From a virus: a DNA stretch of 31,510 bases. The stretch covers positions 1 to 31,510 of the IMG/VR virus record IMGVR_UViG_3300030098_000955; one strand, 5' to 3'. The notes under the pieces were generated by a model. That model searched no databases, was not told the origin of the DNA, and saw only the letters and a program-made list of their open reading frames with translations. Made by a program: the position numbers and the translations under genes. Positions 3,145 through 30,688 of this stretch are shown in pieces (position 1 is the first letter of the stretch; the number at the start of each line of letters is the position of its first letter).

Positions 3145-3413
3145 AAAGTATTCTGTATAAATTCTTCAGGCGGTGCTACATAAGAGTATTTAGCAATTTT
3201 AGTTTTTCTTCCGAATCTAGTTTCTCTTTCTATTGGTGTGCTATCAATAAAGTATCCTTCTTTTCTATGGTTAAATATAATTGCTGATAGTCTTGTTGCT
3301 CCATACTCTTTAATAGCTTCCCAACTAGTTATACTTTTGTAATTTTTTAAATGCCAAAGTACCGCGTCAGATTGTGTCTTTACTTCGTTTCTTTTTATTG
3401 TTATTTTCTTCAT
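3138..3413 (-). CDS. Helix-turn-helix protein (HTH_39-like)
   Basis: This 91-residue protein matches the small winged-helix pattern seen in Pfam HTH_39: Q-S-D-A-V-L-W-H-L-K, then S-I-T-S-W-E-A-I-K-E-Y-G-A-T-R-L-S-A-I-I-F, then a wing with R-K-E-G-Y. These proteins are frequent in phage early regions and probably bind DNA or regulate transcription. The 5' part is overlapped in another frame by a 45-residue membrane peptide gene (3367-3504). The N-terminal Lys/Arg cluster fits DNA binding. Confidence 0.7.
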   Translation of the reverse strand: MKKITIKRNEVKTQSDAVLWHLKNYKSITSWEAIKEYGATRLSAIIFNHRKEGYFIDSTPIERETRFGRKTKIAKYSYVAPPEEFIQNTLW

Positions 3414-7204: not shown

Positions 7205-7254
7205 GGTTAAGACGCCTCTCGGCGTTTCGCTTATTTAAAGCTCGTCAGCTAACC
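7205..7254 (-). ncRNA. Type I hammerhead ribozyme
   Basis: The minus strand (7254 to 7205) reads stem I GGTTAG, core CTGACGA, stem II GCTT-TAAAT-AAGC, core GAAA, stem III CGCC-GAGA-GGCG, then TC and the other strand of stem I TTAACC. All invariant core bases are present: C3 U4 G5 A6 N7 G8 A9, G12 A13 A14, the A15.1-U16.1 pair, and C17 at the cleavage site. Cleavage is predicted between 7211 (C) and 7210 (U). Stems II (4 bp, 5-base loop) and III (4 bp plus A-U, GNRA loop) are closed; stem I is open, hence type I. Hammerheads are known in phage genomes. Activity, and the stem I-loop II contact, cannot be judged from this sequence alone. Confidence 0.9.
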
Positions 7255-7268
7255 TATCTTTTGTATTT

Positions 7269-7466
7269 TTATAATATCTCCCAATCAACTACTTCTGTTG
7301 TCCAAGGGTTGTGACCAAATTGTTCCGCACATAAGTCAGTTGCCTTCATTTTTGCTTCCCATTCTGACCTTGCTTCTACTGTGTAATCAATACAAGTTAA
7401 TTTATCTGATTTGCTTGGGTTTTCTTTAACCTCTACTTCTACTGTGTATTCAAATTTATTTTCCAT
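7269..7466 (-). CDS. Small hypothetical protein, first gene of the early region
   Basis: This 65-residue acidic protein has a beta-strand pattern in the first half (F-E-Y-T-V-E-V-E-V, then I-D-Y-T-V-E-A-R-S) followed by a helix (W-E-A-K-M-K-A-T-D-L-C-A-E-Q-F) and a Trp-rich end. The shape suggests a compact alpha/beta fold; no family recognised. It is the first coding region after the structured RNA candidate. A TATAAACTAAAA repeat lies 12 bases before its ATG. The hammerhead lies just behind its stop codon. Confidence 0.6.
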   Translation of the reverse strand: MENKFEYTVEVEVKENPSKSDKLTCIDYTVEARSEWEAKMKATDLCAEQFGHNPWTTEVVDWEIL

Positions 7467-7477
7467 TATTTTCTTCT

Positions 7478-7489
7478 TTTTAGTTTATA
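7478..7489 (-). repeat. TATAAACTAAAA leader repeat (copy 1)
   Basis: This exact 12-mer on the minus strand lies in the leader of the 7269-7466 gene, downstream of the structured RNA. It is preceded by G, as at 6968-6979. Confidence 0.45.
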
Positions 7490-7540
7490 CTTTTGCTCCG
7501 TTTGGTAAGGTGGTTGCTTCTGCCTTTATTTTTATATTTT

Positions 7541-7762
7541 AAAAAAGGAGTAAAGCAATTATTTGTTTACTTTGAATTGTGTTTAATATCTTAATAAAAC
7601 CTGTTCGCAATAGAACTCTCCATATTCTGACCTTACAGCTGTTCTCACAAGGCGTGATGGCGGTTGACACTTTATAAAGCTTGGCTTTATACATTAAGTA
7701 ATTGAGTTCTCGTTGGCTTGCCTTTACTTAACGCTCATTTGACTCGTTTGCTTTACTCCTTT
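7541..7762 (-). ncRNA. Candidate structured non-coding RNA with pseudoknot
   Basis: On the minus strand, AAAGGAGTAAAGCAA (7762-7748) pairs perfectly with TTGCTTTACTCCTTT (7558-7544), followed by a U-run ending at 7541. Inside, CGTTAAGTAA (7733-7724) pairs with TTACTTAATG (7701-7692). Directly abutting it is a hairpin TATAAAGC/GCTTTATA (7691-7684 with 7680-7673, three-base loop). AGAACTC in the first hairpin loop (7710-7704) is complementary to GAGTTCT (7618-7612), a pseudoknot. CCTTGT/GTAAGG (7652-7647 with 7636-7631) adds a fourth helix. Two helices close only with G-U wobbles on the minus strand and would have A-C mismatches on the plus strand. No known RNA family is recognised. Confidence 0.6.
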
Positions 7763-7937
7763 AATATTTCAATGAACTAATTATGAGGTAAATATAATAA
7801 GAAGATATATATAAACCAAGTAAAAGTGTTAAAAACTTATTAACAATTGTAATGTGAATAAGATTATTACGTATAAGACGTTCTAATACGTTTCGGATAT
7901 AATATATATAAAAATAAAAAGAATCGCTTAAAACGCT
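7763..7937. other. A/T-rich non-coding segment, possible origin/control region
   Basis: With the RNA at 7541-7762, this segment makes up the only long gene-free stretch (7467-7937). It contains the promoter candidate and a 23-bp imperfect palindrome ACGTAT...ATACGT (7869-7891) with an ACGTT centre. It also contains alternating A/T runs and, at 7925-7954, three similar decamers (CGCTTAAAA, CGCTTTAAAA, AAGCTTAAAA), the last two overlapping the 24-residue ORF. Long A/T stretches plus short repeats would suit a replication origin or operator, but no DnaA box is obvious. Confidence 0.35.
7789..7819 (-). promoter_or_regulatory. Bacteroidetes-type promoter candidate for the early transcript
   Basis: The minus strand has TTG (7819-7817), 20 bases, then TATATTTA (7796-7789). 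This is one base off the Bacteroidetes -7 element TAnnTTTG, at a normal distance from the -33 TTG. Transcription would start near 7780-7785, about 20 bases before the structured RNA's closing stem, and run left into the early genes. Confidence 0.45.
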
Positions 7938-27547: not shown

Positions 27548-27884
27548 CTTTTATATTTACTTTTAATTTAATTGGTTCTGATGAAGATAAATCTAATTCA
27601 CTCCTTTCTATATATCCTCTTTTCTTTCCTTTTGTTTTTAAATAGAAGATTGTAGCTGAAGTATTACCGTCTTTCATTTGTGTATGTAATTGACTTTCTG
27701 CAAAGTCAAGGGCTATGTTTTCTATTTCTTTAACATTCTTAGCAAATTCTTTGTCTTCTTTTAACCATTTATAATATGTACTTCTTGGAGTGTTAGTTTG
27801 TTTACAGGCAACAGTTACTACTCCTAAACTTTGTTCTAGTGCTTTTAATAGTGTTTCTTTTTTTATGTGTCTACTTTTGTCCAT
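27534..27884 (-). CDS. terS: Terminase small subunit-like HTH protein
   Basis: In this 116-residue protein, residues 10-45 form a helix-turn-helix ([21 protein letters not shown]), followed by helices and the typical [12 protein letters not shown] block, as in terminase small subunits that bind the packaging site. The C-terminus is a short strand. It overlaps folE by 14 bases and terL by 14 bases, so packaging genes are translated together with the DNA-modification genes. Confidence 0.8.
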
Positions 27885-28434
27885 TGTTTATTAAATTTAA
27901 AAATTCTTCTCTAGCTTTTGCGTCTTCTTTAAATACTCCTAACATTTTAGAAGTCGTTGTCCAAGTATTATGTTTTTTTACTCCCCTCATATTCATACAT
28001 AAATGTTGTGCTTTTAAAGTAACTGCAACTCCTAAAGGGTTTAATTCTTTTTCTATTCTTTCTGCTATTTGAGTAGTAATACGTTCTTGGTTTTGTAACC
28101 TATTAGCGTATAAATCAACAGTTCTAGCAAGTTTACTTAATCCTACAATCTTACCTTTTGGTATATAAGCTACATTTGCAACTCCAAAGAATGGTGCTAT
28201 ATGATGTTCGCATAAGCTATAGAAAGGAATATTTGTTTGTACTATCATTTCATCAGTTCCTTCTGCGTCAAAACACGTAAATTTAAACTCTTTTGGTTTA
28301 AGAAATTCCTTCATAAATTTAATATACCTTTTAGGTGTTTCTTTTAGTCCTTCTCTATTTGAGTTTTCTCCTAAAAATTCTAGTAACTCTTTTATATTAT
28401 TTTCAATTTCTATACTCCTGTTGTTTGATTCCAT
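27871..28434 (-). CDS. folE: GTP cyclohydrolase I
   Basis: This 187-residue protein, close to the usual length of the type I enzyme, converts GTP to dihydroneopterin triphosphate, the first step towards 7-deazaguanines. Key residues are C75-E-H-H78 and C146 for zinc, the [12 protein letters not shown][12 protein letters not shown] core (81-104) and [11 protein letters not shown] (114-124). The N-terminus has the E-T-P-K-R-Y motif. It overlaps queE by 25 bases. In a host that already has folE, a phage copy signals a high demand for the modified base. Confidence 0.95.
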
Positions 28435-29123
28435 AGTTCTATTTGTAATCTGCTACTATAATTGTAACAGTGATTAATACATAATTTTGAAACATATTCG
28501 CTATTCTCTCGTAACATATCTTGGTCATCTGCTGCAGGCATTAACCAAATCTTTTCTGTTTTTATATTCATACTATCAATATACATAGATTTTAATTCTT
28601 CCCAATCATCTTTATTTGCTATCACAAATTTGAATATGCTATTTTCTATTTCATTAAATCTTTCTATTGCTTGTGGTTTATATCTTCTTTTGATATTCAT
28701 TCCTGCGCTTGATAACTTTGGACTTACATTAAACAAATCAACATACTTACATAATTCATCACCTGCATATTGAGTACAATTAGTTTCAATTTCAATATAT
28801 GGTAAATATGAAAATCTTTCTTTATATTGTTTTAAAAATTCTACTATATTATGTTGCTGTAATAATGGTTCGCCTCCTGTTATAATTAAATGTGCTCCTT
28901 GTTTTAATCTTTCTGTATAGTTATTTTCTTTAAACATATCTAAAGTTTCTTCTATACTATAATGATTCCCTTTTATCCAAACCTCTATTGTGTCGCAAGT
29001 CCATTTCTCATCACACATAAGATTGCAGGATTGTAGTCTTAGAAATACACTTGGTATTCCCATTGTTTTGCCTTCGCCCTGTAAAGAATAAAAGTGTTCG
29101 CTAATGTTTAATCCTTTCTTCAT
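28410..29123 (-). CDS. queE: 7-carboxy-7-deazaguanine synthase (radical SAM)
   Basis: This 237-residue protein carries the QueE pattern: F-Y-S-L-Q-G-E-G (11-18), the cluster ligands C33-N-L-M-C37 and C43 (C-x3-C-x5-C, a wider spacing than the usual C-x3-C-x2-C, but as found in several phage and Bacteroidetes QueE forms), I-T-G-G-E-P-L-L (81-88), and later E-I-E-T-N-C and N-V-S-P-K-L. It turns 6-carboxytetrahydropterin into CDG. It overlaps queD by 23 bases and folE by 25 bases. Confidence 0.93.
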
Positions 29124-29511
29124 TGTATATAATTTTTGATGTTTTTGTTTCTCCTAATTGTATTTCAATAATAGGTAGCTTTGTTTTTATTTGATTGTAT
29201 ATCCAAATAGCCATATTCTCTGCTGAAGTTTCAAATGGTAATTCTATATAAGGTTCGTTTGCTAATTCTAATAACTCGCATAAAGGGTCATCACGAAATA
29301 GTAAAAAGTAATGGTCGTATTGTTTTATAATAGGTTCTACGATTTTATCTATATCTGAAAATAACATTGTTACTCCATTATTCATTTCGTTGAATTTAAA
29401 AATACATTTTATATTATATGTATGTCCGTGTATTCTTCCACATTTTTCTCCTGCTTCTTTATTTCTATGTGCTGCGTAAAAGTGATATTTTTTTTCTATT
29501 TTAATTTCCAT
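29101..29511 (-). CDS. queD: 6-carboxy-tetrahydropterin synthase
   Basis: This 136-residue protein has zinc ligands H15 (A-A-H-R) and H28-x-H30 (R-I-H-G-H-T-Y), with the catalytic Cys24 just before, then Y-D-H67-Y-F-L-L, P-F-E-T-S-A-E-N-M-A (92-101) and G-E121-T-K-T-S. It makes 6-carboxytetrahydropterin from dihydroneopterin triphosphate, the step between FolE and QueE. Complete length and all active-site residues are present. It overlaps the gat-queC gene by 11 bases. Confidence 0.95.
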   Translation of the reverse strand: MEIKIEKKYHFYAAHRNKEAGEKCGRIHGHTYNIKCIFKFNEMNNGVTMLFSDIDKIVEPIIKQYDHYFLLFRDDPLCELLELANEPYIELPFETSAENMAIWIYNQIKTKLPIIEIQLGETKTSKIIYNEERIKH

Positions 29512-30688
29512 ATATTGTTTTATCTTTAACCTTAGCTCTGCTGAATGCTTTTTTCCTCATATAACAAGGACCACATTTTCCACAATGGTTCTCTAAATTA
29601 TTATAACAACTCCAAGACAAGTGAATTGGTGAATCGTGTTCTACTCCAAATGTTACAATCTCTTTCTTCATTAATCCTCCTAATGGTGTTATTAGTTCAA
29701 CCTTATAGCCATTATTAACTGCTCCATATAAAAGACTATTAAAGTCAATCATAAACTGTTCCTCGTTATCAGGATACGCTCCGCTTTCTTCTAGGTTGCT
29801 ACCTAAATAAATATATCCAAATTGATTAGCTTCAGCATAAGCCGTGGCGACAGATAACATAACTAGGTTTCTTGCATAAACCCAATCTAAAGCGTACTCT
29901 ACACCATTTTTTCCTGTTTCTATTACTCCTTCTTGAAACAGGGTGCTTGTTCCTTTAAATTTAGTATAATCAAGATTTAAAACTTCATATTCTATATTAA
30001 AATATTCTGCGATTGATTGAATAGAATTTATCTCTTTTTCTGTTGCTTTACACCCATAATCAAAATGAACCAATTTCATTTCTTTATGTTTTTTAAAAGC
30101 GTAACCTGTAACTGCCGTACTGTCAAGACCACCACTACATACTATTAACGCTCTGTCAGGTTGGTTTCTATCTATTTCTACTGATTCTTCTGTCTTTAAA
30201 TTCATTACCGAGTATGGTTTTACTCTGATAGCATTTTTACCCAAATGTTCTTTTAAAGAACTAAAATATATTTCCCCCTTTCTTTTAAGATAAAAGATAG
30301 GTTTATAGTTACAAGCTAAAATGATTTCATTATCTTTAAGTATTGCAATAGAAAAACTTCCTTGAATTTTTTTTAAAGTTTCTTTAATTGTATAAATATT
30401 TTCAACATCTAAAACATTTGCAAAAGCTTTGCTGTCTAATTCGTTTTCTAAAACATCACACTCTTTATCATTAGAAACTGTTCCGTTATGAACTATCTTA
30501 TAATCTATACCAAAAGGTTGGTTTTGAAGTGGGTTTAATTTTTCATTGGTAGGTGTAGCTCTATGATTACATATCCAAAGTCCATTCTGTTCTACTAGAG
30601 AAGTAAAATCTCTACCTCTATCTTTAGCTTTATGATATATCTTAAGCCCAAACTCATCAAGTTTTGTTCCTCCTAGTATTGAACACAT
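29501..30688 (-). CDS. gat-queC: Gat-QueC fusion: glutamine amidotransferase class II + preQ0 synthase-like
   Basis: This 395-residue protein has two domains. Residues 1-170 form a class II (Ntn) glutamine amidotransferase: Cys2 as nucleophile after Met removal, N-H-R-A-T-P (41-46), V-H-N-G-T (66-70) and G-S-F-S-I-A. Residues 178-395 form QueC: P-loop S-G-G-L-D-S-T (185-191), H-F-D-Y-G (208-212), L-D-W-V-Y-A-R-N, and the zinc site C361, C369, C372, C375. Gat-QueC is the crenarchaeal and phage (9g-type) enzyme linked to archaeosine-type G+ bases, where the amidotransferase delivers ammonia to the nitrile. This points to a dG+-type base, not dPreQ0. It ends one base into dpdA's stop region. Confidence 0.93.
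   Translation of the reverse strand: MCSILGGTKLDEFGLKIYHKAKDRGRDFTSLVEQNGLWICNHRATPTNEKLNPLQNQPFGIDYKIVHNGTVSNDKECDVLENELDSKAFANVLDVENIYTIKETLKKIQGSFSIAILKDNEIILACNYKPIFYLKRKGEIYFSSLKEHLGKNAIRVKPYSVMNLKTEESVEIDRNQPDRALIVCSGGLDSTAVTGYAFKKHKEMKLVHFDYGCKATEKEINSIQSIAEYFNIEYEVLNLDYTKFKGTSTLFQEGVIETGKNGVEYALDWVYARNLVMLSVATAYAEANQFGYIYLGSNLEESGAYPDNEEQFMIDFNSLLYGAVNNGYKVELITPLGGLMKKEIVTFGVEHDSPIHLSWSCYNNLENHCGKCGPCYMRKKAFSRAKVKDKTIYGN

Follow-up and report, generated by a model that had tools for sequence, protein, structure and literature searches.

What kind of element opens the early gene cluster of a marine phage, and does its RNA serve the operon behind it or something else? The question is raised by 222 nt on the minus strand (7541-7762) of the viral record IMGVR_UViG_3300030098_000955, of which a stretch of 31,510 nt, here called the window, was analysed. 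The types of promoter and of boxA found there suggest that this marine phage infects Bacteroidota. Without great assurance, we lean towards an accessory phage gene for a non-coding RNA that is laid out like a pre-rRNA, with a boxA followed by a leader-trailer helix, that would be transcribed with the help of Nus-type antitermination and whose core would act in trans.

Results

Promoter, boxA and fold of the window RNA

The Bacteroidetes-type promoter candidate that the initial annotation had placed upstream of the element was found as a TTG and a second box separated by 20 nt (Table 1), and related phages carry TAnnTTTG where the window has this promoter candidate. Directly after it, no more than ~20 nt from the presumed transcript start (~7780-7783, placed from the sequence only), stands a motif that lies outside 7541-7762 and had been missed; the coordinates of the element should rather extend to ~7783, taking in this boxA. 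The motif matches once in the window at ≤1 mismatch (0.09 expected) and is identical over AGTTCATTGAAATA to the boxA that Maribacter zhoushanensis (L190) has in its 16S leader. Four more flavobacterial genomes (L191, L192, L193, L195) match it at 12-13 of 14 bases in their rrn leaders or spacers, where AGTTCATTGACATA or close variants stand in the 16S leader or in the 16S-23S spacer. It is common to the window and ten other phage leaders; as judged from these matches, the shared motif is the boxA of host rRNA operons, and by its resemblance the window copy is a putative NusB-binding site.

Table 1. Positions of the features of the minus-strand RNA and of its surroundings in the window
Feature	Position	Strand	Remarks
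Promoter candidate, Bacteroidota type	7789-7819	minus	TTG (7817-7819), 20-nt spacer, TATATTTA (7789-7796); read directly
boxA, AGUUCAUUGAAAUA	7765-7778	minus	rrn boxA identity; 2 nt upstream of P1
P1, 5' arm of closing (leader-trailer-like) helix	7748-7762	minus	perfect 15-bp inverted repeat
P1, 3' arm	7544-7558	minus	pairs with 7748-7762
Hairpin P3	7691-7734	minus	arms 7724-7734 / 7691-7701; single-sequence prediction, pair probability 0.48
Pseudoknot, 5' side	7704-7710	minus	in P3 loop; proposed
Pseudoknot, 3' side (GAGUUCU)	7612-7618	minus	compatible, not beyond chance
Hairpin P4	7673-7691	minus	8 bp, loop CAA; arms 7684-7691 / 7673-7680; pair probability 0.91
U-run at 3' end of P1	7541-7546	minus	read directly
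Conserved unstructured 3' tail, GGCAGAAGCAACCACCUUACCAAACGGAGCAAAAGU	7489-7524	minus	common to window and L122
First protein gene of operon	7269-7466	minus	65 aa; relatives in L082-L085, 67-80% identity

The perfect closing stem described earlier is present as P1, followed by the U-run, and is clearly beyond chance, being the sole perfect 15-bp inverted repeat in the window with arms ≤300 nt apart. The RNA closed by P1 folds better than shuffled sequence (z = -2.56 to -2.68), as does the P3-P4 segment (z = -2.1), and the interior without P1 folds no better than shuffles (z = +0.5). The better-than-shuffle folding of the whole RNA is thus due to the closing stem, and chance could give the interior fold as well as its 7-bp pseudoknot. 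Both annotated hairpins exist on this strand, the second as P4 with its 8 bp and the first as P3, which with its G-U pairs counts 11 pairs rather than the 10 reported. The 7-bp pairing between the P3 loop and a downstream segment can be formed, so that a pseudoknot is possible and compatible with the sequence; the pairing is not more than chance would give, and in the minimum-energy fold the downstream segment is paired in a nested way.

The 222 bases had been said to contain no convincing gene, and indeed IMG/VR contains no relative of their longest internal frame (51 codons). An untranslated, stem-closed RNA heading the minus-strand operon is supported, gene order suggesting its place at the start of the early transcript. 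The first protein gene shows no promoter of its own; RNA and mRNA are therefore probably transcribed together, and the RNA may never exist as a separate molecule.

Downstream, on the same strand and in the same transcription unit, the first gene is followed by a predicted hammerhead ribozyme (7205-7254). It scores 21.5 against the Rfam threshold of 34 bits, with a complete core and compensated stems, and would cut 18 nt ahead of the next start codon. Diverged counterparts occur in L067 (~2131-2185), L082 (~3201-3265) and L085 (~2406-2460); all four copies keep the core CUGAYGAG, CGAAAC and GUC with compensated stems and sit in gaps between the small genes that open the early operon, each a short way ahead of the following start codon. 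Hairpins of the form GGGGGYG..CCCCC recur between small early-operon genes in L065, L070, L084, L100, L112 and others. At 27871-30688, also on the minus strand, lie genes that, by their translations, we take to resemble folE, queE, queD and queC, suggesting 7-deazaguanine DNA modification in this phage.

Searches for homologues

The core of the RNA had no homologue by blastn in INPHARED phages and PLSDB plasmids, none by frame-based patterns in IMG/VR, and none among ~105 related viral records, which gave short chance-level matches only. A 17-base core pattern found three matches in IMG/VR, all in sequence unlike the window, and the window itself holds no second copy of the element. In line with the earlier statement that it matches no nameable RNA class, the minus strand of 7541-7762 matched no Rfam family up to E = 5, and ARAGORN found no tRNA or tmRNA in the window. 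The boxA head gave 62 matches in GTDB genomes, none of them seen as a promoter-boxA-RNA arrangement, and thus no prophage was found. Chryseobacterium phage MA9V-2 and phage PAU, which were similar in short blastn matches, were rejected as they proved on reading to contain no boxA. A limited literature search found no paper on boxA in Bacteroidota phages. No evidence was found for an origin transcript, a role that the initial annotation had offered, or for a ligand switch.

Related phages and other RNAs behind the same boxA

The relatives considered here are metagenomic contigs. The closest ones, L094 and L097, are without the element despite 86-95% identical flanking genes, and the element thus appears to be accessory. 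These two are also without boxA, as is L112 when compared with L116. Moreover, about 50 related phages with leaders of 4-70 nt, collected by anchoring on the metallophosphatase gene with a simple promoter and gene-start rule that makes a few calls rough, have no boxA at ≤3 mismatches; the one exception, L107 (3 mismatches), is likely a chance match. As these short-leader relatives are without it, boxA thus accompanies the untranslated RNA and not the operon as such. Not every such leader requires it, since several long untranslated leaders after the metallophosphatase gene (L007, L038, L054, L066/L073, L103) have none. Among these, L038 and L054 have the pieces GGAA.TCT, TCAATGTTA and GGTGACAAATC in common, and a G-run/C-run stem closes the leader in L007 and in L066.

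Relatives L108 and L109 share 35 nt with the window at the promoter and transcript start. The exact head, AATTAGTTCATTGAAATA, was found at 12 loci in IMG/VR; TTTG stands 3-25 nt upstream in 11 of them, and the majority stand before a stem-closed leader that is not translated. The leaders behind this common head fall into unrelated groups, namely the classes A, B and C, the leader of the window and, in L127, a tRNA region, although class counts are small and include near-duplicate loci (L116/L123, L117/L120/L125). Any likeness of the cores to rRNA or to one another was rejected, the matches being short and at chance level. Class A (L116, L118, L126) has 90 consensus pairs as predicted, with both-sided, compensatory changes at 7 of the 90 among its three sequences and a few pairs broken; its core is absent from 50 other phage records. 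Class B (L117, L120, L125) contains a tandem repeat and gives z = -3.6. In class C (L119, L122, L222), a helix formed by AAGAUUGGU and ACCAAUCUU in L122 reads AAAAUUAGU and GCUAAUUUU in L222, which amounts to two double changes. Taken singly, L118, L126, L119, L122 and L127 are unremarkable by shuffling (z from -0.5 to -2.1).

In classes A and B and in L222, the closing helix covers boxA itself (AUGAACUA against UAGUUCAU), and the finished RNA would therefore hide it. In the window, boxA is left free of the closing helix, and the 3' side carries the tail shared with L122, which has this same tail but a different core and a different first gene. The window leader sits after the metallophosphatase gene, in the same slot, 100-260 nt behind that gene, that is shared by five other leaders (L116, L118, L122, L123, L222).

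A relaxed scan that allowed an rrn-like variant found the promoter and boxA directly before phage tRNA clusters in L198, L203, L207 and L212, the last with 22 tRNAs behind it. More widely, an rrn-like boxA (ATTAGTTCATTGACATATTGG or ATTAGTTCTTTGACATATTGG) heads or lies inside phage tRNA clusters in L198, L203, L204, L207, L212, L214, L215 and L218, and in L202, L206 and L219. In L217 (~6019), a promoter and boxA stand directly before what by eye looks like an IS605-type transposase gene.

Discussion

Read as an accessory RNA gene, the element has the layout of a miniature pre-rRNA: a promoter, boxA within ~20 nt of the start, the long P1 helix and a structured core. The emerging boxA would be bound by host NusB-S10 with NusA and NusG, and the bound complex would convert RNA polymerase to its rrn-type antitermination form, so that transcription of the untranslated RNA, and possibly of the operon that follows, could proceed without premature termination. 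The trailer would then pair with the leader and close the RNA; the core would be a replaceable cargo that affects the host in trans, e.g. as a decoy or regulator. Several parts of this picture are seen directly. The boxA sequence is identical with that of flavobacterial rrn and follows the promoter, closing stems are present, cores are exchanged behind a shared 5' end and within a shared slot, and in other phages tRNA clusters stand behind the same boxA. That Nus factors bind, that termination is suppressed, that a discrete RNA is released and that it acts in trans is what we infer.

The main rival, which we consider rather unlikely, is a cis-acting site for processive antitermination of the early operon, like lambda nut or HK022 put, through which polymerase would pass downstream terminators and which would act on its own transcript only. 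The location at the very start of the operon, the presence of a boxA and the succession of boxA and structure, which is the layout of nut (PMC10250234), would all suit such a site, and the downstream operon of the relatives contains intercistronic hairpins. Yet ~50 related phages start the same operon directly with a gene, with neither boxA nor RNA; this speaks against a general need for a cis antiterminator in the operon, and not against its use in this phage. Moreover, the cores behind boxA are mutually unrelated, unlike what a site for one dedicated factor would show, and tRNA clusters are headed by the same boxA.

Less probable again is a leader that regulates the first gene as an attenuator or ligand switch, with the closing stem and U-run as a conditional terminator or with a sensing core. 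A stem and U-run do lie before the first gene in a 5' untranslated location, but 189 nt separate the arms of P1, a poor spacing for an intrinsic terminator, the vicinity of the start codon shows no expression platform, the 3' tail recurs in L122 ahead of a different first gene, and Rfam offers no match. The least probable reading is a DNA element, that is, a recombination cassette or a small insertion of the MITE kind, with terminal inverted repeats that are read as a stem: the 222-nt unit has perfect terminal repeats and is missing from close relatives, and classes A and B have conserved ends, differing interiors and ATAATT on both sides, but the position is constant and always after the promoter, an rrn boxA forms the 5' end, compensatory changes occur in class A, and no second copy was found in the window or any in phages or plasmids.

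Returning to the accessory RNA gene, a broader view may be put forward with some hesitation. Bacteroidota phages might possess a general accessory site at the start of the early operon from which exchangeable structured RNAs are made via rRNA antitermination, each a stand-alone, stem-closed particle acting on the host, e.g. against defence or ribosome function, with the window core as a class not seen elsewhere. Outside rRNA, Nus-dependent antitermination has been described in lambdoid phages and for a small number of bacterial genes, chiefly among proteobacteria. If boxA is indeed a mark of non-coding RNAs in Bacteroidota phages, of tRNA clusters as well as of several novel structured RNAs, Nus antitermination would be extended to another phylum and another purpose. 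Promoter, boxA and closing stem together would then provide a short searchable tag for phage RNAs without sequence homologues, which covariance searches miss.

Among known systems, GOLLD and ROOL are likewise structured phage RNAs of unknown function; they are much larger and have Rfam families, in contrast to the window RNA, which matches none. Lambda nut and HK022 put resemble the window RNA in being phage early-operon leaders with a boxA (nut) or a structured RNA (put), but by eye no boxB-like hairpin as in nut lies between the window boxA and P1, which are 2 nt apart, and the window-type cores are diverse and missing from most sister phages. The suhB mRNA and a ParE-like toxin gene show that boxA also serves bacterial genes outside rrn, there as a functional Nus site (PMC5725501). 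These are mRNA leaders of gamma-proteobacteria, unlike the window RNA, and the same study states that non-coding RNAs were not considered (PMC5725501). The rrn leader itself differs in that the window RNA encloses no rRNA and is phage-borne, ahead of protein genes. Its helix begins 2 nt after boxA, whereas 18-19 nt separate boxA from boxC in Enterobacteriaceae (PMC10250234). In E. coli rrn, boxA is necessary and sufficient for recruitment of Nus factors, and the leader-trailer helix comes after it (PMC10250234). The window has the same order, with a boxA equal to that of a flavobacterial 16S leader near the transcript start and then a long helix closing an untranslated structured RNA.
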